From the IMG/VR virus record IMGVR_UViG_3300008113_000201, positions 1 to 32,797 of that record: a stretch of DNA of 32,797 nt. The stretch is one strand, 5' to 3'. This DNA is from a virus. The notes beneath the pieces were generated by a model that saw nothing but the letters and a program-made list of their open reading frames with translations, ran no database searches and was not told the DNA's origin. The position numbers and the translations under genes are program-made. Numbering within the stretch: position 1 is the first letter of the stretch; each line of letters opens with the position of its first letter. Positions 4,286-16,148 of the stretch are shown here, one piece after another.

Positions 4286-5011
4286 ATGCCTACAAAAATA
4301 TATGACATATCCTACATCAAGACAATCTATGGTAAAAGCATAGAGGTATCTCCATTAAAGATTAAGTACATGAGAGAGTTTATGCATAAGTTTGATTCAG
4401 TAAAAACAGCACAGGATGAGGATGAAATTATACAAATCTTAACTGAATGTGCAACTATCGCAATGAAACAGTTTTATCCAGAAGTGGACACAGTAGAAAA
4501 GTTTGAGGACAATTTCGACTTAAAGACTATGTATAAGGTTGTAGAGTATGCTGGTGGAATTAAGATGGATAACGAAGAGCCAGAAGATTTGGAAGATATA
4601 GAAGAACAGCCAGAACAAGCGGAAGTTTCTTCAAAATCTGGATGGGAAGATTTAGATTTAAATAAATTAGAATCAGAAGCATTTCTTTTGGGTATCTGGA
4701 AAAATTACGAAGAACTAGAGTCTTCTATTTGTTTGGCAGAACTTATGGCTATCCTAGAACAAAAAAGAGAGATGGACTATCAAGACAAAAAGTTTACAGC
4801 ATCTCTGAAGGGTATTGACCTAGACGATGCTACAGGACAAAAAGAGGAAGACCCTTGGGAAGCAATGAAAGCCAGAGTAGCGGCTAAGTCAAGCGGTATT
4901 GGAAATGGAAATCCTAACGATGTTACATCACTACAAGGAATAAAAGCACAACAAGCAGGATTTGGTATCGGACATGGACTAGATTATGAAGTCCTAAATG
5001 AATCCCAGTAA
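4286..5011 (+). CDS. Tail assembly chaperone, long form (in-frame G-T type)
   Basis: This 241-residue protein likely guides polymerisation of the tube around the tape measure. Residues 1-95 form a G-like domain (motifs PLKI, FMHKFD, CATIAMKQ, YKVVEYAGGIK). An acidic linker (about 96-115) follows. A T-like C-terminal region (about 120-241) contains LAELMAILEQKREMDYQDKK. In many siphophages the T part is reached only by programmed frameshift; here both parts are in one continuous frame. The N-terminal domain is clearly paralogous to the next gene. The start is ATG 4286, with no Shine-Dalgarno sequence, next to a promoter. Function comes from synteny and sequence pattern. Confidence 0.75.
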   Translation: MPTKIYDISYIKTIYGKSIEVSPLKIKYMREFMHKFDSVKTAQDEDEIIQILTECATIAMKQFYPEVDTVEKFEDNFDLKTMYKVVEYAGGIKMDNEEPEDLEDIEEQPEQAEVSSKSGWEDLDLNKLESEAFLLGIWKNYEELESSICLAELMAILEQKREMDYQDKKFTASLKGIDLDDATGQKEEDPWEAMKARVAAKSSGIGNGNPNDVTSLQGIKAQQAGFGIGHGLDYEVLNESQ

Positions 5012-5050: not shown

Positions 5051-5368
5051 ATGACAACAACTATTAATGAAGAGAAGAATATTACTCTTATTGATGGAAC
5101 TACAGTTACCATTAGACCATTGAAAATTTCATTGCTTCGTGATTTTATGAAGAAGTTTGACGAGATTTCAAAGGTTGCAGAAGACAACGACAAGTCAATG
5201 AACTTGTTGATGGAATGTGTGCAGATTGCACTTAAGCAGTACAAGCCAGAAATTGCAACAGACCTGAAAGCACTAGAAGACCTTCTAGACCTTCCAACTG
5301 TTTACAAGATTGTGGAAGAAGCATCTGGCATTAAACTAGGAGATTCCGCCCTTGGTGGTCTACTCTAG
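5051..5368 (+). CDS. Tail assembly chaperone, short form (G-like paralog)
   Basis: This 105-residue protein matches the N-terminal domain of the preceding gene in order and spacing: RPLKI, LRDFMKKFD, MECVQIALKQYKPE, TVYKIVEEASGIK. It ends soon after that domain, so it corresponds to a stand-alone G protein. It has its own promoter and a strong ribosome binding site (AGGAGG at 5041-5046, 4 nt before the ATG). I see no slippery heptamer near its end and no T-like continuation in another frame before the tape measure starts. It lies directly upstream of the tape measure, the classical place for the chaperone. Confidence 0.75.
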   Translation: MTTTINEEKNITLIDGTTVTIRPLKISLLRDFMKKFDEISKVAEDNDKSMNLLMECVQIALKQYKPEIATDLKALEDLLDLPTVYKIVEEASGIKLGDSALGGLL

Positions 5369-5399: not shown

Positions 5400-8300
5400 A
5401 TGGCTGACGATATTCAGTCCAATATTAGAATTAATGTTGATACTGCTTCCGCAATGGACAGCATCAGATTACTTCAGAATCAAATCTCAGCCTTCCATAC
5501 ACAAATGTCCAAAATGGGGGCAGCCAGTGCTGCTGACTCCAGAAACTTACAACAAAATCTCGTAAATTCTATTAATGCCACAGGTGCATTTGCTGCAAAT
5601 ATGACTAAGGTCAGAACAACTGCAGAACAATTTTCTCTATCACTTGAAAGAAACAAACTCTCAATGGGAGAGTATTTCAGATATGCTGGTGGAGCGTCTA
5701 AATCGTTCGGAAGAATGTTTAAGGCTGAATTTGAAACAATAAACAAGGTTGCTCGTGAAAGAGTAAAAGACCTACAAAGCCAATACATTAAACTTGGACG
5801 TGACGCTAATGGTGCTATGCAAGCAATCAGAGTTAGACCACTTGTGCTTGACATGGACAATCTTGCAACAAAAACACAGATTGCTGCTCAAAGACAGCAA
5901 CTTCTAAATCAACTACTTAAGCAAGGTTCTACAAACCTTCTAAACTTTGGTAAGAACACTCAGTGGGCTGGTCGCCAGTTGATGGTTGGTTTCACTATTC
6001 CACTTTCCATCATGGGTAGTGCAGCCATGAAGTCATATAAAGAAATTGAAGAAGCAGGAATCAGATTAAAGCGTGTATACGGAGACCTTGGGACCACAAA
6101 CATGGAAACCGAAAAGATGGTCAAGCAGGTTCAGATGCTTGCACAAGAGTATACTAAGTATGGTGTTGCTGTTAAGGATAGTATGGAGATGGCTGCAACA
6201 GCAGCAGCAACTGGTAAAAAGGGAGCAGACCTTCTAGCACAGGTTTCATCTTCTGCAAGACTTGCTGTCCTTGGTGGTGTAGACCAACAAATGGCTCTAA
6301 AGACAACAATCTCTCTAACAGATGCTTTTGGTGTTTCTGCCAAGCAACTTTCTAAAGACATCAACTTCCTAAACGCTGTAGAAAACCAAACAGTTCTAAG
6401 CATTGAGGATATGACTGTAGCCATTCCAAAGGCTGCTCCTGTTATTCAGCAACTGGGTGGAGATGTTAAAGACCTAGCGTTCTTCCTAACAGCAATGAAG
6501 GAAGGTGGAATTAATGCATCTGAAAGTGCTAACGCACTAAAGTCTGGTTTAGCATCTTTGATTAATCCAACAAACACTGCAAGTAAAATGCTTCAGGGAT
6601 TCGGCATCAACCTTCGTGGAATCGTTCAAGGTAATAAAGGTGACGTAAAGAAAACAGTTATAGACTTTGCACAAGCCCTAGATAAACTAGACCCACTAAA
6701 CAGAGCAAAAGCAATAGAACAATTGTTCGGTAAGTTCCAGTTTGCTCGTATGTCAACTCTTTTCAAGAACGTAATTGAGCAGGGTAGCCAAGCATCAGAA
6801 GTATTAAAACTAGCATCTACAAGTAGCCTAGAACTATCTATGCTGGCACAAAAAGAATTAAACAAGATTCAGCAATCACCACTATACAAGTTCCAAAAGG
6901 CTATTGCTGACTTCCAAGCACAACTAGCCCCTGTTGGAGAACAGTTTATGAAGGCTCTTACTCCAATCATTAACTTTGGAACAGATGTTCTTAAAAACTT
7001 TAACAACCTTGGTGAAGGTGTAAAAGGTTTTATTGTTAAGTTTGTTGCTGTCGCTGGTGTTGTAGGTCCAGTACTTTTGATGTCCTTTGGTCTTATCGCT
7101 AACGCTGTCGCAAACGTAATTAAGGGCTTTGCCCTGATGAAGGATATCTTTAACAAAACTGGGAAGTCCTCCATGAGTCTTGGAGACCAAGTTAACTACA
7201 TGACTAATGAACAGATTCAGGCAGCAGCAATTGCTTCATCGCTTGACCAAGTTCACTCAAAACTAAAACAAACATTTACATCAGAAGCAGCGGCAGTAGA
7301 TGCCCTCACAGCAGCCTATCAGCGTTCTGTAGCAGCACAGAGAGCATTTGGTGTTCCTATTACACCTAGAGGACCTGTAGCCACAGGACCTGTTAGAAAA
7401 TATGCTACAGGTGGATTTATTACTGGTGCTGGAACTGGCACTAGTGATTCGATACCTGCTATGCTTTCAAATGGCGAAGCAGTTATTCCAGCAAAATCTG
7501 TGTCACAAAACAGAGACCTTGTTCAGTCTCTCATTAACGACAGCATTCCTAGATTTGCTTCTGGTGGTATTATTGGGACTCCTTCAGAAACATTAATGCA
7601 ACAGGTAAAAGGAACTAGTGCAGTTATCGCTTATGGAGCACATCAACCCTTCACTTCTGCTCATCAGGGTATTGCCCAAAGAGGAATGTCTATGGCAGAA
7701 GAATCTGGAATGCCATTCTTCCAGTTCACATCTAATCAGGGTAAAGCAAAGCGTTCGGTTCTAGGAGATGACCTTAAGTCTAGGATGATTTCTGAGGCTA
7801 TCGGTAGAAACCCTGAATTTGCTAAAAATCCATTTGAGTTGATGGCTATCCTATCTAAGGCTGGAATTAAAAATGTAAATATTCTTCTTGGTGAAGATAG
7901 AATGAAGTCTCCAGTTTGGGAAGCAGCAGCAAAAGAATTCGGTATTACTATTACAAAGACTGGCATTCCTAGACCATTAGGTTCTACATCTGGAACTATG
8001 GCACGAGCAGCCGCTGCAAGCGGAAACTTCGGAATGCTTGAGCCACTGCTTGCATCTGGAATGTCTAAATCAACAAAGGATGAAATTTTTAAAACTCTTT
8101 TTGCTGCTGGTAAGGGTAAAAAATTTGCTTTTGGTGGTATGGTTCGTGGTCCTGGTGGTCCAAAAGATGACCTAGTTCCAGCAAATCTTTCTAATGGTGA
8201 GGCAGTTATTGATGCTGAAACAACCAGAAAAAATCCTAGAATTATTGGTGCATTATTTGCTGGCAAGAAGATTAACATTCCTGGATACGCAGAAGACAAT

Positions 8301-11300
8301 TCTGAATTGTTTGGTTTTGAAATGCCAGATAGAATTACTCAAAAAAATGCAAAAAGAGTTAGAGAGGCTTTAGATGCCGCTAAAGCAGTTAGCGAAGATG
8401 TTCTTGGTGGACTAACTCAGTCTTTAAATAATATTACAAAGTTTACACAAAAGAATATTGATGAAGTTCTTTACTCCCCAGAGTTCGAACTTTTAAGTTC
8501 TATGACTGCTGCTAAACAGGGAAGAAGTACTGGTAGTCAGGGAATGGTTAAGGCACATGGAACCTTAACACGAGAAGTTTCGGCACAAGACGTTGCTCCA
8601 TTTATGGACCCTGGACAAAATGCACTTTTAAGCCAAGCGTCTAAAATAAATGCTATGAACAACCTTACTTTTGGTATGCCAGCATCATTTAATAAAGGAC
8701 AACTAACTGGGCTAGAAGGTTCAAAATTTATTAAAGAATTCCAAGATGACTTCATGTCTCAACTTGCTGCACAAGGACTAGATACTAATGACCCAGCATC
8801 CAGGGCATTCGCAAATAATGTTGCTCAACAAATGGAAAGAGCAGGAGCAAAAGTTATTGGCGACTCCGAATTTGCAGAGATTGTTTCTATAGCAATTAAT
8901 CAAGAAATTGATGCGGTAGGTAAAAATGTAAATCAGGGAGTTAGAAAAGTATTTGCTGAAGCAAGAAAAACTAGTACTATGCAATACACTATTCCTGGTA
9001 CACCAACAGCAAGAATGAATGTTCCAACATCTGGAAGAGGAAGGTCTGCAAATGGAATTACTACTATAGGAACAGGTGTAATGCCATACAGAAGTATTCC
9101 ACTACTAGATAATGCTCATCAAAGGGCTGATATTTTTACTGCAAAAATAATTGCAGATAGATTTAAAAAAGATGGAAATGTTGCTGCAAACGCATTCTTA
9201 GATGCTCAAAAAGTTGTACTGAGCAAACCAGCAAATGACCCTGCAATGCTTTCAAGAGATGCAGGTAAAAGGAATAGCCCACACCAACAAGCACCTATTG
9301 ACGGTAAGGATGATGGGGTAGCGTATAGTCAGGCTCGTACAAATGCAATAGCACAAGAAGAAGCCAAGTCTGCGACCAGACGTAATAGAAGAGTAACAAG
9401 TGGCGGTATTATCACCCCAGGAGAATCACAGGCACAGCAGGTTCAAAGAACTAGGGGGAATAGGGTAGCGTCACAGGGAGAAAGTTTCGTTCCAGGAAGC
9501 ATGATTATTGTTAATCCAAAGGATGTTGTTCCTGCAGTAAATACTTCTTCATCACCAACAATTATTCCAGCAAATCAAAATTTCAAAAAATCTGTAATTC
9601 CTGCTCCATACGACACAACAAACATGAATCTTATTGAAAAACAAGGACTTAGACTAAAGTATGGTCAAGGTTTTCAAGGAAAGATGTTCGGAACATCTAT
9701 GGGTCTTGGTATGGCATCTATGTTCCTTCCACCAGAATTAGGTGCTATTGCTCAGGCTGGTTCTATGGCAACTGGTGTTGCAGGTATGTTTAAGGATGCT
9801 GGACCAAAACTAGGAGAAGCACTATTCAAATTTGGAAAACCACTTCTAAGACTTGTGCCATATGTTGGTGCAGCGGTAGTGGCATTTGAAGTCTTCGATA
9901 CTTTTATTGTGCCAATGGTAAAAAAGAATGCTGACGCATATAAGGCTATAACAGATACTTTATCTATTACTCAAGAAAAACTTCAGGGAATAAATAACTT
10001 CTTTGGCACAGATGTTCAACTTACTGGAATTAGAGCAATGAAAACCGCTGGTGGAACGCAATCAGCAAGACAAGCAAGCATTGCAAAACAATTTCAAGAA
10101 AGTCAAGATTTTAAAGATACTTATCAGGAATCAGCAAAAAAGATGGAAGGTCTTTCAGATAAAGAATTTAGTTCAGCAATGCAATTTATGGCTGCAGACC
10201 TATTCGGTCAGGGCTACGAGGCAGAGGCTGTTACAGCAATTGTAGACGCTATAGCACTAGAGGCTAAAAAAAGCAGAGTAAGTATTGCTCCAGAACTATT
10301 TTCATTAGACAATGAACAAACTAGAGCATTAATGAATAAAAATATTGAACAGGTTCTTAACACTGCTGGTGAAATTTTTGAACGTTACGAACCAGGTGAG
10401 TATATGAGTCCACAAGATAATGCAATGATAAAAGCCACTCAAGCCCAAGCAGCATCTTATATGAGTTCTTTGAGCGGACAGTTTGAAAGTGGAGCAATTA
10501 GTGCCGAAGATTATAACACTCAATATGAAAAATTTCTAGCCCTAAGTCAAAAAGTGCCTGACGGTATGGGACTATATACTTTACAAATGGCTTTTGCACA
10601 ATTAAATAGTGAAATAGGAAACACACTATTTAAACTTGACGAACTTCAATTTGGAATTGTTTCAAAAGCAATCAATGCTGGCGTTACTCCTACAGCAGAG
10701 TCTGCAAAAGTTTTTGAATATGGAACAGACTCACAAGTAAAAGCACAAGTTGAACTATATAACGAAGCATATAAAAAACGAGTAGCACTAGATTCTAAAA
10801 TAGACAAAACAAAGGCTCAGTTAAAAGCAGTTGAAAATTCTACCCAAGACATTGCAAATCTTGAAGGAAAAATTAATGATAAATACGATAAACGTATTGA
10901 CCAACTTGATAAAATTAAAACGCTAAATGACCAAATTGCAAAATCACAGCAAGGACAGTTAACCTTAGCAGAAGCATTAAATAAAGGAGACATCGCTGCA
11001 GCAGCAAGAGCAGCAATAGAAATTCAAAATAATGATATTCAGGCATCTTTAGATAATCAAAAGACTGGTTTAGATGAAGCAAGAAAAGCAGAACTAAAAC
11101 CCTTGGAAGATAGTAGACAAGACAATACAGCAGCAGTAGACAAATTAACTACAAAAATACAAGATTTAATTTCTAAAGGTATTACTGTTCAAAATCTTCC
11201 ACCAAGAGAACTTGATAGTGTAATGACTCCAGAAGAAAGACTAAAAACACAAGGAATACCAGAATGGCTTATTCCAGTTCTTCGTTTCTTCAATCTAGGA

Positions 11301-14300
11301 AAGGCTCCTACAGGAGAGAGTGGCGGCGGCGGTTTAGCCTCTGGTGGACACATTACAGGTCCAGGTAGCGGAACAAGCGACAGTATTCCAGCAATGCTTT
11401 CTAATGGAGAATATGTTATTAGAGCAAATGCTGTAAAGACTATTGGTGTTGATACCCTCAATAAATTGAACCAAGCAGACAGACTAGGCTTTGCTGCTGG
11501 CGGTATTGTAGATGCTATGAAAGGTAAAAAGCCACCAAGAACAGACCAGTACCCAAACGTAGACCCTATTGACCCTAAGTCAGTAGCGGCATATAGAGAA
11601 AGAATTGCTAAACTATTTAAACCAACTCCTAGAAAAGAAGACCCTACATGGTTTGACTGGACTGGTGGAAAGCAGTCAATGCTTGCAATGCTTGACGATA
11701 CTGGCAACTATCCAGGATATTATCAGTGGACAGCCCCCTATGCTGTTGGTGGTTCTTTCAATAAAACTAAAACTGGTCCATCGGCATATACATGGGCAGA
11801 CAGCCCTTTCCAAAAATACAATCCATTAAATTCAATGGAGACAAACAAAAAACTATTTAGTAAACTTCCAGAAGCATTCCCAAATCCTGCTGCTAACCAA
11901 AACCCACTAGATATCATTGAGGCATACAAAAAAATGCTGGAAGGAAGAAAGAGACTAGCCGAAAATGTTTACCTTCCAGACTTAAACAAAGACACAACAT
12001 TAATGACATCAAAGAATCCAATTCTTTATACTATTGCTACATATGCTAAAGCATTTTCTAATAGAGGCATTTATACAGATAGTACTGGTGGTCAGGACTT
12101 AGAAAAAGCAAGAGCACTCATAGAATTGGGAAGAACAAGTAAAATGATTCCAGGTTGGGACGGTCTCGACCCTAAAGAATTTAAAAACCTTGTAGATGCA
12201 ATGCACTCTGAGTTTGGTCCACAAGTCACAAAGGGCATGATTGGCAAACTAGGTTTTGGAAAAAGATATGACAGACTTATTAATCCACCAAAGGGTCCAT
12301 CTGCAAAACTAAATTATGCAGAAAATTATTTGGGTATTTCAGGAGGCATTCCAAAAGATAGTCCTATATATCAGTACGCATATAACTATATGACAAATGA
12401 TTATGAAGGTGGTGAAAGAGGCAGACAAAATTGGTTTAGAGGCTCTCCGAATTCATTTGTGCTTAATCCAAAACTTGGAACATACAACAGGCTAGGAGGA
12501 TATAACGGTTTTGCTAAGGGCGGTATGGTTGGCTGTCCTTGTGGTACCCCAGGATGTCCAGGCTGTTCAAAGGGTTACGCTATGGGCGGTATGGTTGGGT
12601 ATGCCAATGGTGGTCTTGTAGGATACAAAGATGGTGGTAAAGTAAAGAAGTCTAGAGGATATCCTGGTGCATTTAACGTTACTTCTAGCGTAGGTCAACA
12701 ACAGGCAGAAAGAAATAGACTTTACAAGCAAGGTGGCTTCCAAGGATTTGAAGCAGGAGCCAATAGTTTTATGGCAGACCTTATGGGTGGTCCTGCTGGT
12801 GAAGTACTCAAAAATGTTGGAAAATTTATAGAAGCCAATCCAGGCTTAAATCTTGCACTATCCACCTTGTCCCTACCAGTGAATTTGCTTGGTGGTGCTG
12901 TTCGTGGCTCGATGAATGCAGGTAGAGCACTTGCAAAGGGAGACTTCTTAGGTGCCGCAACATCTGGATTTAGAGGACTTGGAGATGCTTTCGCTTCAAC
13001 ATATGGAAACATCTTTGATAAAGAAAATGTTTACAAGTCTCAATTTGAGATGGCAGCACAAGATGTTATAAACAATGGAGAATTTGGCAGCAAGAATAAT
13101 AAAGAACTTCAGGCACTAGCAAGGATTATCGGTGGTACAGGAGACCTAGCATTTGACCCTTTAAACTATGTTGGTATTGGTCTTGCATCTAAAGCAGTTA
13201 AGGCTACTTCTTTTGCTAAAAATGCTGGTAAGAGTGTAGCAAAGGCTGTAAAGCCAGTAAAGACAGTTACAAGAGATGCAATAGCACTGGCTGCCGCTAA
13301 GAAGTTTGAATTACAAACAAAAAATATTCCTCCATTAATTAACCCTGGAAAGGGTACTAGAGCATCGCTTGAAGCAGCAGAACGCATGGCTTCAAAGATG
13401 AACCTTGGTAAAAACATGAAGGTTGATATTAAGACAGCCATTACTGATGATGAAATGGCTGAAATGTTTGACATAGAGTCGCAGTTTGAAGTTCCAGAAT
13501 ATTTGTATGCAGGACTGCAAGGTAGTTTTAGAAACACAAAGGCTCCTGGAACTCAGGGTATGGCAGGTAATGTTAGTGGAGTAATCTATAATAAAGATGG
13601 CGTTCTTAGTGCAGAAGACATTCACATAAGACTAGAAGAGGCTTATAGAGGTAAGGGCATTGCTCAAAAGTTTACAACTCAGTACATGGCACTATTGAAA
13701 AATATGGGAGTAAAAAGTGTAGGCATAGACGCAGCCCTATCAGATGGTGGTTATGCTTGGGCTAGGGCTAATTTCAAGTTTAATGCAAGACCAAAGAATC
13801 TTATCGAAAGAATGGAAGTCATGGACCCATTTATCTACAATCCAAAATTTGATGAACTTTTAGAAAGACTTAAAACAGCAGACATTAAAGATTTGCCTAT
13901 GCCAAAAGAGATACTAGGCTTGAAAACAGATTGGAGAAAGTCTCTTTCAGAAGAACGACTTCATTCATTTTTGACTGGAGATAGTCGCTATCCAAGTTAT
14001 GGTGCAGACCCTTATGCTGTTATGCGTCTAGCAAATGATATTAATCCTAATGCTAAATCTTTAGGAGAACTTATTATGAGAGGTTCTAGGTGGACTGGCA
14101 GTAAGCAAATTGGTGGTAACTCAGTACTAAAACAGTTCTTTGACAACAGTGTTGGCATGGGCAAAAGTGTGTTTAATAAATTTAAAGAATCTCGAAACAT
14201 GTTCCAAAGGAGAGTGTTCGATGGCGTTGCAAATGGCATGGGTTATAGAATAAAAGGAAAAGATTTCGCTTTTCAGGGATTTGAGCAAGACTTTTCTGAA

Positions 14301-16148
14301 TTATCTGATTTACTAGATATAAATGTTGTTCAATTAGCCAATAAGTCAGACCTAGAAGTTCCCAAAGGATTTGTTGGGGCATCAGCACCAACACCAGTAG
14401 CATTACTAGAAGCAGCATTAAAAATAAAACCTGGAAACAAAAAGTTGCAGTCTATGCTAGACAATTTTAAAGAAATGAAAATCGGTAAAAAAGAACTAAG
14501 AATGGTAGACAATATTGCTGCATCAATATCAATTGATAGTAATATGAAAGCCCTCAATTTAGAGAATACAGATGGATTTGCCATGATGCTATCTTCATTG
14601 GCTGGAAATAGACGTGCTAAAAATATAATTAACAAAAAAACTAATGTCTTGCAAAAGATTATGAATGATAGAGCATCTTCAGCAAAACAAAAAGAAATGG
14701 ATGAATTGGCAGAACATCAAAAACAATTTGGTGGCTATGGGGATATGGCAGACCCAAGCACTATTCCAATGATACACACGTCAAAATACCCTATTGTTCG
14801 TGATAAAGATGGAAACATTAATCTGTATCCACTTGGACAGTTTAATCCAAAATATGCAAGAGCGTCCGTGCACTTTACAGAAGAAGCCCCAGTCCAGTCA
14901 CATTTGTCTGGAACCTGGGATTCTTCAGAAACTAAAGTTGTTTCTCCTTTATCTTCAATGATAAGTGACAATGGATTACCAGCAAATCTATACCCATTGG
15001 ATAGTTGGTGGATGAGAAATCCTGGACAATCAGTAAAACTTTCTAATGCTAGTGTTATTAGACCTTTTAAAGACTACAAAGCATACACCGAAGAACTTGT
15101 ATCTAGGGGATTAATTGAGCCAGGAAAGATGGCACCAGTTATTATGACTGACCCAAAAACAAAAGATGTTTTATATGCGATTAAACCAGAATATAGTTTT
15201 GTAGATAGAGTACAAATACAAAAAGCATTAGAGGCACCATACCCTAGATATAAGTCAGATAGAATTAAAGGAAAAGAGGCTGAACTTTTAGACGGATTGG
15301 CTTTAGACCTTGCTAAAAAACAGTTAGGAATTAATACTCAAAAATCAACTATTGGAGAGCACCAACTATACCCAGATTCCAGACACAAGCAACTTCTTGC
15401 AACAGCACAAAGCCTTGGAGTTGGTGCAGATAGATATCACACAGGAAAGTCTGTACAGAGATTGGAAAGTCCTTTTGGTCTTAAAGATAATTATGGAGAA
15501 ATGAGTTCTAGAACTAAGTTTTCAGACTTTATGGAGTCGTTGAGAATGTCTATAATTAAGGGACATTTTAAAACATCAACTTCTTTAGATGGACCTTTTT
15601 CTGATATACATTTTAGACCAAAAACAGCAGAAGAGTTAGCAGACCTTCCAGAATTTGCTAATGGTGGTATGGTTCGTAGATATGCTAATGGAGGATTAGT
15701 TCGTGGAATGATGTCTATTCCAGAACCAGCACCTAAACAGTTTGCTAATGGTGGAATGGTTAGAGCCGCTATGGGAGGAATGCTTATAAATGGAAAGTTC
15801 CTTCCTGGCTTTGCTATGGGTGGTATGGTTCCAGCCAAGTTTGCTATGGGTGGATATGCTATGGGAACAGACACAGTCCCTGCTATGCTTACCCCAGGAG
15901 AATTCGTAATTAAGAAGTCAGCGGTAGACAGAATTGGACCATCTGCTCTTAATAAGATTAATGGATATGCAGAAGGTGGACTAGTTGGCGGTATGTCAAC
16001 AACATCTTCAGATTCAGTGTATAATAATAATACATACGAAATAAATGTCAATGTAAGTTCTAACTCAAATCCAGACCAGATAGCAAATGCTGTAATGACT
16101 AAGATTAGACAGATTGACAATAAGCGAGTAAGAGGAAGTGCGTTTTAA
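5400..16148 (+). CDS. Giant tape measure protein with embedded enzyme-like domains
   Basis: The 3582-residue protein sets tail length. Order: TP901-type tape measure core (about 1-640) with a hydrophobic segment near 544-570; Gly-Gly linker motif (669-701); nucleotidyltransferase-like domain (about 740-900); second motif (909-942); long variable region with hydrophobic stretches near 1431-1467 and 1483-1506; coiled coil (about 1788-1931); third motif (1980-2013); unassigned region (about 2040-2370); GGMV cluster with four cysteines (2379-2389); Ala/Gly-rich region; GNAT-like domain (about 2680-2800); further unassigned regions; GGMV cluster (3419-3490) with a fourth motif; conserved-looking C-terminus with a run of Asn and INVNV. 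Start: ATG 5400 after AGAGG at 5386-5390. The stop overlaps the next ATG (TAATG). At 0.15 nm per residue the maximum tail would be about 540 nm, less if inserts are globular. Confidence 0.93.
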   Translation: MADDIQSNIRINVDTASAMDSIRLLQNQISAFHTQMSKMGAASAADSRNLQQNLVNSINATGAFAANMTKVRTTAEQFSLSLERNKLSMGEYFRYAGGASKSFGRMFKAEFETINKVARERVKDLQSQYIKLGRDANGAMQAIRVRPLVLDMDNLATKTQIAAQRQQLLNQLLKQGSTNLLNFGKNTQWAGRQLMVGFTIPLSIMGSAAMKSYKEIEEAGIRLKRVYGDLGTTNMETEKMVKQVQMLAQEYTKYGVAVKDSMEMAATAAATGKKGADLLAQVSSSARLAVLGGVDQQMALKTTISLTDAFGVSAKQLSKDINFLNAVENQTVLSIEDMTVAIPKAAPVIQQLGGDVKDLAFFLTAMKEGGINASESANALKSGLASLINPTNTASKMLQGFGINLRGIVQGNKGDVKKTVIDFAQALDKLDPLNRAKAIEQLFGKFQFARMSTLFKNVIEQGSQASEVLKLASTSSLELSMLAQKELNKIQQSPLYKFQKAIADFQAQLAPVGEQFMKALTPIINFGTDVLKNFNNLGEGVKGFIVKFVAVAGVVGPVLLMSFGLIANAVANVIKGFALMKDIFNKTGKSSMSLGDQVNYMTNEQIQAAAIASSLDQVHSKLKQTFTSEAAAVDALTAAYQRSVAAQRAFGVPITPRGPVATGPVRKYATGGFITGAGTGTSDSIPAMLSNGEAVIPAKSVSQNRDLVQSLINDSIPRFASGGIIGTPSETLMQQVKGTSAVIAYGAHQPFTSAHQGIAQRGMSMAEESGMPFFQFTSNQGKAKRSVLGDDLKSRMISEAIGRNPEFAKNPFELMAILSKAGIKNVNILLGEDRMKSPVWEAAAKEFGITITKTGIPRPLGSTSGTMARAAAASGNFGMLEPLLASGMSKSTKDEIFKTLFAAGKGKKFAFGGMVRGPGGPKDDLVPANLSNGEAVIDAETTRKNPRIIGALFAGKKINIPGYAEDNSELFGFEMPDRITQKNAKRVREALDAAKAVSEDVLGGLTQSLNNITKFTQKNIDEVLYSPEFELLSSMTAAKQGRSTGSQGMVKAHGTLTREVSAQDVAPFMDPGQNALLSQASKINAMNNLTFGMPASFNKGQLTGLEGSKFIKEFQDDFMSQLAAQGLDTNDPASRAFANNVAQQMERAGAKVIGDSEFAEIVSIAINQEIDAVGKNVNQGVRKVFAEARKTSTMQYTIPGTPTARMNVPTSGRGRSANGITTIGTGVMPYRSIPLLDNAHQRADIFTAKIIADRFKKDGNVAANAFLDAQKVVLSKPANDPAMLSRDAGKRNSPHQQAPIDGKDDGVAYSQARTNAIAQEEAKSATRRNRRVTSGGIITPGESQAQQVQRTRGNRVASQGESFVPGSMIIVNPKDVVPAVNTSSSPTIIPANQNFKKSVIPAPYDTTNMNLIEKQGLRLKYGQGFQGKMFGTSMGLGMASMFLPPELGAIAQAGSMATGVAGMFKDAGPKLGEALFKFGKPLLRLVPYVGAAVVAFEVFDTFIVPMVKKNADAYKAITDTLSITQEKLQGINNFFGTDVQLTGIRAMKTAGGTQSARQASIAKQFQESQDFKDTYQESAKKMEGLSDKEFSSAMQFMAADLFGQGYEAEAVTAIVDAIALEAKKSRVSIAPELFSLDNEQTRALMNKNIEQVLNTAGEIFERYEPGEYMSPQDNAMIKATQAQAASYMSSLSGQFESGAISAEDYNTQYEKFLALSQKVPDGMGLYTLQMAFAQLNSEIGNTLFKLDELQFGIVSKAINAGVTPTAESAKVFEYGTDSQVKAQVELYNEAYKKRVALDSKIDKTKAQLKAVENSTQDIANLEGKINDKYDKRIDQLDKIKTLNDQIAKSQQGQLTLAEALNKGDIAAAARAAIEIQNNDIQASLDNQKTGLDEARKAELKPLEDSRQDNTAAVDKLTTKIQDLISKGITVQNLPPRELDSVMTPEERLKTQGIPEWLIPVLRFFNLGKAPTGESGGGGLASGGHITGPGSGTSDSIPAMLSNGEYVIRANAVKTIGVDTLNKLNQADRLGFAAGGIVDAMKGKKPPRTDQYPNVDPIDPKSVAAYRERIAKLFKPTPRKEDPTWFDWTGGKQSMLAMLDDTGNYPGYYQWTAPYAVGGSFNKTKTGPSAYTWADSPFQKYNPLNSMETNKKLFSKLPEAFPNPAANQNPLDIIEAYKKMLEGRKRLAENVYLPDLNKDTTLMTSKNPILYTIATYAKAFSNRGIYTDSTGGQDLEKARALIELGRTSKMIPGWDGLDPKEFKNLVDAMHSEFGPQVTKGMIGKLGFGKRYDRLINPPKGPSAKLNYAENYLGISGGIPKDSPIYQYAYNYMTNDYEGGERGRQNWFRGSPNSFVLNPKLGTYNRLGGYNGFAKGGMVGCPCGTPGCPGCSKGYAMGGMVGYANGGLVGYKDGGKVKKSRGYPGAFNVTSSVGQQQAERNRLYKQGGFQGFEAGANSFMADLMGGPAGEVLKNVGKFIEANPGLNLALSTLSLPVNLLGGAVRGSMNAGRALAKGDFLGAATSGFRGLGDAFASTYGNIFDKENVYKSQFEMAAQDVINNGEFGSKNNKELQALARIIGGTGDLAFDPLNYVGIGLASKAVKATSFAKNAGKSVAKAVKPVKTVTRDAIALAAAKKFELQTKNIPPLINPGKGTRASLEAAERMASKMNLGKNMKVDIKTAITDDEMAEMFDIESQFEVPEYLYAGLQGSFRNTKAPGTQGMAGNVSGVIYNKDGVLSAEDIHIRLEEAYRGKGIAQKFTTQYMALLKNMGVKSVGIDAALSDGGYAWARANFKFNARPKNLIERMEVMDPFIYNPKFDELLERLKTADIKDLPMPKEILGLKTDWRKSLSEERLHSFLTGDSRYPSYGADPYAVMRLANDINPNAKSLGELIMRGSRWTGSKQIGGNSVLKQFFDNSVGMGKSVFNKFKESRNMFQRRVFDGVANGMGYRIKGKDFAFQGFEQDFSELSDLLDINVVQLANKSDLEVPKGFVGASAPTPVALLEAALKIKPGNKKLQSMLDNFKEMKIGKKELRMVDNIAASISIDSNMKALNLENTDGFAMMLSSLAGNRRAKNIINKKTNVLQKIMNDRASSAKQKEMDELAEHQKQFGGYGDMADPSTIPMIHTSKYPIVRDKDGNINLYPLGQFNPKYARASVHFTEEAPVQSHLSGTWDSSETKVVSPLSSMISDNGLPANLYPLDSWWMRNPGQSVKLSNASVIRPFKDYKAYTEELVSRGLIEPGKMAPVIMTDPKTKDVLYAIKPEYSFVDRVQIQKALEAPYPRYKSDRIKGKEAELLDGLALDLAKKQLGINTQKSTIGEHQLYPDSRHKQLLATAQSLGVGADRYHTGKSVQRLESPFGLKDNYGEMSSRTKFSDFMESLRMSIIKGHFKTSTSLDGPFSDIHFRPKTAEELADLPEFANGGMVRRYANGGLVRGMMSIPEPAPKQFANGGMVRAAMGGMLINGKFLPGFAMGGMVPAKFAMGGYAMGTDTVPAMLTPGEFVIKKSAVDRIGPSALNKINGYAEGGLVGGMSTTSSDSVYNNNTYEINVNVSSNSNPDQIANAVMTKIRQIDNKRVRGSAF
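7404..7503 (+). repeat. Tape measure linker motif, copy 1
   Basis: Encodes TGGFITGAGTGTSDSIPAML followed by SNGEAVI. The pattern GG-(hydrophobic)-x-G...SDSIPAMLSNGE-x-VI recurs four times in this gene. Such motifs are common in actinophage tape measures. This copy separates the core from the nucleotidyltransferase-like domain. Confidence 0.85.
7600..8090 (+). other. Nucleotidyltransferase-like (HIGH superfamily) domain inside the tape measure
   Basis: Within residues about 740-900 I see a first strand ending in VIAYGAHQPFTSAHQG (H755 in the HxGH-type position, Ala replacing the usual Gly). A middle strand and turn, VNILLGEDRM, follow. Near the end is GSTSGTMARAAAASGNFGML, which matches the SGT-x-x-R signature of phage and NadR/cytidylyltransferase-like nucleotidyltransferases. 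The order and spacing fit the family. Substrate is unknown, and activity is uncertain because of the altered first motif. Confidence 0.72.
8124..8224 (+). repeat. Tape measure linker motif, copy 2 (divergent)
   Basis: Encodes FAFGGMVRGPGGPKDDLVPA followed by NLSNGEAVI. It keeps the GG start and the SNGEAVI end but has GGPKDDLVPAN in the middle. It closes the nucleotidyltransferase-like domain on its C-terminal side. Confidence 0.8.
10760..11192 (+). other. Coiled-coil segment of the tape measure
   Basis: Residues about 1788-1931 are highly charged (Lys, Glu, Asp, Gln) with repeating hydrophobic positions, for example LDSKIDKTKAQLKAVEN and DQLDKIKTLNDQIAKSQ, and almost no Gly or Pro. This is the expected extended helical part of a tape measure. 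Confidence 0.7.
11337..11440 (+). repeat. Tape measure linker motif, copy 3
   Basis: Encodes ASGGHITGPGSGTSDSIPAM followed by LSNGEYVI. It is nearly identical to copy 1 over GTSDSIPAMLSNGE. It separates the coiled coil from an unassigned globular region. Confidence 0.85.
12510..12650 (+). repeat. GGMV repeat cluster with four clustered cysteines
   Basis: Four short repeats of the form (aromatic or Tyr)-Ala-x-Gly-Gly-(Met/Leu)-Val occur here, ending in YKDGGKV. Between the first two repeats is CPCGTPGCPGC (C2379, C2381, C2386, C2389). I find no other cysteine in the 3582-residue translation. Confidence 0.85.
13430..13800 (+). other. GNAT acetyltransferase-like domain inside the tape measure
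   Basis: Residues about 2680-2800 contain a strand SGVIYNKDGV, then EAYRGKGIAQKFTTQYMALL, which carries the GNAT acetyl-CoA pyrophosphate loop signature (R-x-x-G-x-A). Next comes MGVKSVGIDAA, and then GGYAWARANFKF at about 2783-2794, matching the end of the GNAT fold seen in several phage-encoded GNATs. Substrate is unknown. Confidence 0.68.
14769..15480 (+). other. Unassigned globular region of the tape measure
   Basis: Residues about 3124-3360 look like a folded domain, not tape measure helix. Features are MIHTSKYPIVRDKDG, ASVHFTEEAP, SHLSGTWDS, a Trp pair at PLDSWWMRNPG, and a later GADRYHTGKSVQRLESPFG. Conserved-looking His, Thr and Trp positions could be catalytic, but I do not recognise the family. 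Confidence 0.4.
15655..15992 (+). repeat. C-terminal GGMV repeats and linker motif, copy 4
   Basis: Six or more short repeats (FANGGMV, YANGGLV, FANGGMV, AMGGML, FAMGGMV, FAMGGYAM) lead into GTDTVPAMLTPGEFVIKKSA, the fourth copy of the SIPAML-type motif. AEGGLVGG follows, then the C-terminal end of the protein. Confidence 0.85.

Follow-up and report, generated by a model that had tools for sequence, protein, structure and literature searches.

A predicted nucleotidylyltransferase module in the modular tape measure protein of a siphophage group

Introduction

In the siphophage JBD30, tape measure proteins (TMPs) have been proposed to be expelled from the tail tube, to enter the envelope and to form a channel for the DNA (PMC11445458). 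Enzymes embedded in TMPs have also been described. A survey of enterococcal GH23 domains reported TMPs with peptidoglycan hydrolase domains (PMC10194240), and an embedded hydrolase domain of this kind is attributed there to the TMP of mycobacteriophage TM4 (Piuri and Hatfull, 2006, as cited in PMC10194240). Polyvalent proteins combine unrelated conflict-type domains, including GNAT, kinase and nucleotidyltransferase domains, in one virion protein that is predicted to be injected; these proteins are packaged in the head or linked to MuF (Iyer et al., 2017; PMC5512222). In addition, the virion proteome of cyanophage S-CREM2 was found to include a cytidylyltransferase as well as a kinase; the authors of that study proposed that such virion proteins enter the host and allowed for contamination (PMC10665884).

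The phage 'cytidyltransferases' of PHROG 3041 and 395 (S-P4 gp136 and a Syn30 protein among them) are separate proteins of 370–430 aa in T4-like phages. Annotation within and around this family is uneven. Members in NC_019443.1 and JN371768.1 are labelled 'NrdB ribonucleotide reductase', an apparent misannotation, and S-P4 gp137, the neighbour of a family member, is called a cytidyltransferase yet is rich in Ser and Lys and has no visible motifs of these enzymes.

The DNA analysed here, referred to as the window, is the whole 32,797-nucleotide stretch of IMG/VR virus record IMGVR_UViG_3300008113_000201. From its letters alone, a nucleotidyltransferase-like domain had been proposed to lie inside a TMP and to act on a host molecule at the moment of infection (the original prediction). 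The present analysis addresses this domain, its homologues and the protein that carries it.

The tape measure gene and its surroundings

The tail genes of the window that bear on the TMP are as follows.

4286-5011 and 5051-5368, + strand: two small genes 5' of the TMP gene, probable tail assembly chaperones by position and synteny with Angela gp54-gp55
5400..16148, + strand: TMP, one uninterrupted open reading frame of 3,582 aa
16726..21153, + strand: minor tail protein of 1475 aa, 3' of the TMP gene (PHROG 10359, 1.1e-57)

The identification of the carrier as a TMP was borne out by matches to PhageMin_Tail (8.9e-25) and to PHROG 10030, 'tail length tape measure protein' (9.8e-97). The protein has the core domain and the size of a TMP, and its gene lies between the tail chaperones and the tail-tip genes. 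The same gene order, two tail assembly chaperones followed by the TMP and minor tail proteins, is found in Streptomyces phage Angela. The Stanwilliamsviridae TMP (Angela gp56, 2105 aa) shares an N-terminal backbone with the window TMP at 33% identity and differs from it in that the nucleotidylyltransferase (NTase) domain was undetected there by tblastn of phage records.

The indications of a host diverge: the N-terminus of the TMP matched one metagenome-assembled genome labelled as a cyanobacterium (37%), whereas the DNA polymerase (55%) and the capsid protein (40%) of the window matched those of Streptomyces phages. A search of genome contigs with the TMP-type NTase domain returned zero relatives.

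A nucleotidylyltransferase domain within the tape measure protein

HIGH-superfamily NTases move a nucleoside monophosphate from an NTP onto a small-molecule phosphate or carboxylate, and a few act in RNA-linked chemistry. Judged by sequence profiles and a structural model, residues 734–900 of the window TMP are an NTase domain of this superfamily, with the following elements.

7599..8099, + strand: NTase domain, TMP aa 734-900 (PHROG 3041/395, independent HMM, AlphaFold2, PDB and BFVD fold searches)
7635..7670, + strand: motif 1, GAHQPFTSAHQG, residues 746-757 with G746, P750, T752 and H755, counterpart of GxFxPxTxGH (alignments A5 and A7)
7743..7763, + strand: KAKRSVL with K784, invariant in every aligned homologue, counterpart of cyanophage KKNPL
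7884..7904, + strand: LLGEDRM, residues 829-835 with G831 and R834, counterpart of VGGDRV (alignments)
7986..8006, + strand: motif 2, TSGTMAR, residues 863-869 with R869, counterpart of SxTxxR / MSASKMR (alignments)

The original prediction had placed motif 1, LLGEDRM and motif 2 correctly in the TMP frame and had numbered H755 and R869 as found here; the two lie 114 residues apart (about 115 had been given). Of the HIGH signature, the C-terminal S-x-T-x-x-R motif is represented by TSGTMAR, with S, T and R invariant in alignment A7 (TMP-type domains). Motif 1 reads GAHQPFTSAH and has the Gly, Pro, Thr and final His; it departs from the classical HxGH in reading T-x-A-H, with Ala for the HIGH Gly and Thr for the first His. 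Phosphopantetheine adenylyltransferase (PPAT) and the cyanophage homologues also have Thr in place of the first His, and the free-standing homologues L008–L012 show T-x-A-H as well.

PHROG 3041 ('cytidyltransferase') matched the piece of the window that was searched at E=1.9e-6 over aa 32–201 of the piece, which is most of the domain, and PHROG 395 matched it at E=1e-3. Free-standing cyanophage cytidyltransferases were matched at about 25% identity by tblastn. An alignment-based search of viral contigs recovered 62 loci, 60 of which are not among the near kin of the window. Alignment A5 (32 rows) is invariant at G746, P750, T752, H755, K784, K793, G822, G831 and R834, and almost so at R869. 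An independent HMM, built from 37 distinct free-standing phage homologues and zero TMP-derived sequences, matched the window TMP at E=6e-11 and eight further TMPs at 2e-15 to 8e-7. Pfam PF01467 (CTP_transf_like) was matched by 30 of the 32 A5 members at E up to 1, with a best value of 1.3e-8; the window domain itself lay below threshold (E=0.021, 15.5 bits against a cut-off of 21 bits). Against the PDB, neither phmmer with the single window domain nor the TMP-only NTase profile gave a meaningful sequence match.

The same NTase family also occurs in larger fusions. L016:5977-10515 encodes a protein of 1513 aa that combines CTP_transf_like with SET and HNH_3, the architecture of polyvalent proteins, and L013 joins an NTase domain to HNH_3.

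An AlphaFold2 model based on A5 (mean pLDDT 85.7, pTM 0.81) alternates strands and helices in a Rossmann-like alpha/beta NTase fold. Nearly all Foldseek matches in the PDB were nucleotidylyltransferases, headed by the PPAT structure 1od6 (6.4e-6, probability 1.00) and including FAD synthetase and NaMN adenylyltransferase. In BFVD, phage cytidyltransferase-like proteins were matched with TMq up to 0.76. Structure prediction, by which the original prediction proposed to be judged, thus returned the NTase fold and not a confident other fold, and the claim of an NTase-like domain within the TMP is upheld by the model, by both fold searches, by PHROG 3041 and by the free-standing-only HMM.

Taken by itself, the sub-threshold Pfam score would leave room for a chance resemblance of motifs, but this was rejected because the free-standing-only HMM matched 0 of 352 reversed or shuffled TMPs and the fold was confirmed. 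An assembly chimera was rejected on finding the same fusion on independent contigs, and an intein because the fold of the domain is not an intein fold. Chance, chimera or intein is accordingly considered a highly improbable source of the observations.

Conservation of the domain in other tape measure proteins

An identical copy of the window domain is present on an independent contig (L001), and L002 carries a 92% copy. With the TMP-type alignment as query, 12 loci (about nine lineages) were recovered, namely L152 (= L001), which is near kin of the window, L150 (= L002), L148 (= L129), L149, L151, L153 (= L082), L154, L155-L158 and L159. All of these domains lie within TMP frames that share the N-terminal backbone. 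Down to about 41% identity, 12 of 12 loci retain GAHQPFTxAH, K784, LLGxDRM and S-(G/A)-T-x-x-R, and G746, P750, T752, H755, K784, G831, R834 and R869 are identical throughout. The conservation of both motifs, on which the original prediction had also staked itself, was therefore seen in every TMP homologue found.

The pN/pS values of the NTase domain were 0.043/0.337 for the window and L002, 0.060/0.417 for L148 and L149, and 0.117/0.717 for L148 and L153, which gives ratios of about 0.13–0.16 in three of the pairs. Synonymous change thus far exceeds amino-acid change, which indicates selection on the domain at the protein level. Between the window and L002, the ratio was 0.4–0.7 over much of the remaining cargo, with 0.6–0.7 in several stretches, compared with about 0.13 in the NTase domain.

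Dead enzymes are often recruited by structural proteins, and the degenerate HIGH motif (T-x-A-H) would suit a domain that has lost catalysis and serves the TMP for binding or as a spacer. This reading is nevertheless judged unlikely. The signature residues are invariant in the 12 loci while adjoining cargo varies freely, T-x-A-H is found in free-standing members too, and the ratio of about 0.13 stands well apart from that of much other cargo in the same pair of TMPs. The pattern of invariant residues favours retention of catalysis, and residues 734–900 are, from their sequence and modelled fold, probably a catalytically active adenylyl- or cytidylyltransferase. The points against this reading are the Ala and Thr substitutions in motif 1 and the position of the window domain below the Pfam cut-off.

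The tape measure scaffold and its cargo

The alignment of 70 complete relatives to the window TMP yielded a map of three conserved blocks, with little common to the TMPs of the relatives between them. The blocks, the spacers around the NTase domain and one further stretch are listed below.

5400..7499, + strand: conserved N-terminal backbone block, aa 1-700 (along its length, 66-70 of the 70 complete relatives align)
7410..7487, + strand: upstream spacer module, GGFITGAGTGTSDSIPAMLSNGEAVI, a repeated module that precedes and follows cargo in several TMPs
8124..8210, + strand: downstream spacer module, FAFGGMVRGPGGPKDDLVPANLSNGEAVI
10800..11219, + strand: conserved central block, aa 1801-1940, between slots A and B (about 62 of 70 relatives)
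13317..13799, + strand: GNAT-like stretch in slot B, aa 2640-2800, with YRGKGIA and GGYAWARANF (weak, below cut-offs)
15837..16145, + strand: conserved C-terminal TMP block with GTDTVPAMLTPGEFVI, mapped at about aa 3500-3582 (about 64-67 of 70 relatives)

The N-terminal block contains a hydrophobic segment at aa 540–581 by hydropathy. In relatives with placeable blocks, slot A measures 809–2,283 aa and slot B 43–1,867 aa. Cargo is flanked by spacers with the pattern GG...GTSDSIPAMLSNGEAVI. On one and the same backbone (L068-L147, L155), complete TMPs range from about 1,700 to more than 3,900 aa, and that of L155, truncated by the locus end, reaches 4,224 aa. This spread of lengths on one backbone raises the question of whether cargo counts towards tail length.

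Several other domains occupy the slots. A kinase-like domain of 260 aa is present in about 36 TMPs, several of which also have the NTase domain, and contains the invariant motifs VKP, AE-R-T and R-D-DL-x-x-x-N; in the TMP of L082 it spans aa 742-1020, in slot A. No PDB match was obtained for it by sequence. Its model (pLDDT 87.8, pTM 0.88) matched LepB of Legionella at 6e-4 in a Foldseek search of the PDB, followed by protein kinases and HipA at 0.003 and weaker, with low TM-scores, and with moderate confidence the model points to a kinase-like fold. NTase and kinase-like fold occur together in L082, L155, L158 and L159. A different kinase-like stretch is found in slot B of L002 (L002:15449-16444), with HipA/PI-kinase-like motifs (YYVKRPD ... 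LGNSDTHGMNILF); the window TMP is without it.

Pfam searches of the TMP family identified a HAD acid phosphatase in three TMPs (best 9e-16) and LysM in three; a PNKP-type HAD was also matched, as was, weakly, the polyvalent-protein domain LPD3. Two GNAT Pfam models matched slot B of the window TMP below cut-off (E=0.046 and 0.061) over a stretch that is conserved in L002, which is no more than suggestive of GNAT-like cargo. The remaining pieces of window cargo gave nothing significant against Pfam and PHROGs. Among them, window positions 14637-15659 (TMP aa 3080-3420, with HFTEEAPVQSHLSGTWD) have no Pfam or PHROG match and are common only to L141 among the TMPs compared. A Cys-rich segment at 12534-12566 (TMP aa 2379-2389, CPCGTPGCPGC), also present in L002, resembles a small metal-binding knuckle.

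The NTase domains of the TMPs form a single clade (100/100) with respect to the free-standing ones. On a tree of TMP N-termini, in which gains and losses are not distinguishable, the distribution of the domain requires seven changes, and branches with good support force at least six of these. The TMP of L159 carries a 164-aa NTase module where its close relatives L139, L126, L124, L121 and L115 have both flanks with 3–15 residues between them, and the same contrast of presence and absence is seen for L155 and L158 versus L114 and L134. In most TMPs with an NTase domain, it lies directly behind the first conserved block; in L082 and L151 its start is shifted by about 300–400 aa, and in L082 the kinase-like domain precedes it. 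It is present in four of about 70 complete TMPs, a sample of best-matching hits and not an unbiased frequency. By these comparisons, the NTase domain is a TMP-specific module, repeatedly gained or lost, that occupies one of the two cargo slots of a modular scaffold. The simplest reading would be that it was captured once and was afterwards exchanged among TMPs or lost from them.

Proposed function and delivery

The explanation preferred here, given about an even chance, is that residues 734–900 constitute an active small-molecule adenylyl- or cytidylyltransferase module that is delivered at tail ejection by way of the TMP. During infection the TMP would exit the tail tube together with the DNA or in front of it, the NTase domain would refold on the host side, perhaps after processing of the TMP, and the enzyme would then nucleotidylate a small host molecule that carries a phosphate. 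Delivery with the TMP and a small-molecule target in the host are favoured because of the ejection proposed for the JBD30 TMP, the virion enzymes of S-CREM2, whose cytidylyltransferase is likened to the window domain by enzyme name and not by alignment, and the L016 fusion. The action at infection put forward in the original prediction is retained as a hypothesis by analogy with these systems. Against delivery, a folded domain of about 170 aa is not expected to fit the lumen of a siphophage tube, so that the domain would need an unfolded or extended state inside the virion and would refold later.

The enzyme could instead work in the cell that makes the phage, ahead of tail assembly or in the course of it, for example on a nucleotide pool or a tail component, with the TMP ensuring late expression at fixed stoichiometry. 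The TMP gene does lie in the tail gene cluster, and the free-standing homologues are ordinary separate genes of T4-like cyanophages. Such free-standing genes would do, however, with no burden on the ruler, and the repeated gain or loss of the module has taken place specifically in TMPs, beside other effector-like folds. This alternative is thought improbable, if marginally less so than the loss of catalysis considered above.

As to the reaction that the enzyme would catalyse, a dinucleotide-cofactor type (adenylylation of NMN/NaMN or FMN) is offered as a first guess because NadD and RibF were the best models for the TMP-type members. Members of A7 matched the RibF model at 2.7e-5 and the NadD model at 5.8e-4. 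A sharper version would make the enzyme a tail-delivered NMN adenylyltransferase that restores or alters host NAD+ and thereby counters NAD+-depleting defences at the onset of infection. The A5 profile matched NadD 2h29 (E=1e-3) and MJ0541 (E=7e-3), TIGR00482 was matched by 29 of 32 A5 members at E up to 1, and phages are known to encode NAD+ salvage of the NMN adenylyltransferase type (PMC9503650). In contrast, RibF is matched by the TMP-type members at least as well as NadD, PPAT ranked first in the PDB fold search, and the annotated window genes yielded no partner gene for an NAD+ pathway. The window domain itself had no NCBIfam match, equivalog models of NadD/NadM/NadR included. The sharper version is rated as improbable as a catalytically dead domain.

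Extended to a large group of uncultured siphophages, the TMP may be a modular vehicle with two slots, whose interchangeable intracellular enzymes thread through the tail and regain their fold in the host at DNA entry; the exchangeable slot enzymes would be the nucleotidyltransferase, kinase-like, phosphatase and acetyltransferase-like domains. This wider proposal is advanced tentatively, both for the vehicle and for its list of enzymes, and is held somewhat less firmly than that for the single NTase module.

Comparison with known systems

No TMP with such an NTase domain was found in the literature searched. Among open-licence papers, none was found that combines a tape measure protein with a cytidyltransferase, an absence that is weak evidence, and in one paper with both 'tape measure protein' and 'nucleotidyltransferase domain' the two terms occur in unrelated passages. 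A tblastn search of 50,697 phage records with the NTase domain gave, among the matches listed, none whose gene carries a tape measure annotation.

PPAT, NadD and RibF (FAD synthetase) are fold relatives of the window domain with the same motif positions, at about 10–16% identity in structural alignments. The PHROG 3041/395 family has the same domain at about 25–30% identity across its whole length, including the common motifs and the region after motif 2; its members are separate proteins, whereas the TMP versions form a clade of their own inside the tail ruler. Like the hydrolase-bearing TMPs, the window TMP contains an embedded enzyme domain. The hydrolases act on the cell wall during penetration, whereas an NTase of the HIGH superfamily needs an NTP, so that its useful site of action would be the cytoplasm.

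Beyond the original prediction, the NTase domain emerges as one module of a cargo-carrying TMP family. If TMPs deliver enzymes, the long non-contractile tail would double as a device that injects proteins and whose payload can be exchanged. The passage of an enzyme through a siphophage tail and its refolding, as well as the effect of cargo residues on tail length, thereby become testable. A parallel in composition is provided by the polyvalent proteins, which are carried in the head or with MuF and whose NTases are of the Pol-beta type, not of the HIGH type found here; TMPs are unmentioned in their description (PMC5512222). For the variable set of enzyme domains that marks such proteins, the TMP family offers the NTase together with the kinase-like fold in L082, L155, L158 and L159 and the gain or loss of the module, and the window TMP a weakly matched GNAT-like stretch as its second enzyme. 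The TMP would be the tail-borne counterpart of these head-packaged effectors and, if this is true, the idea of injected effectors would extend from phage heads to tails.
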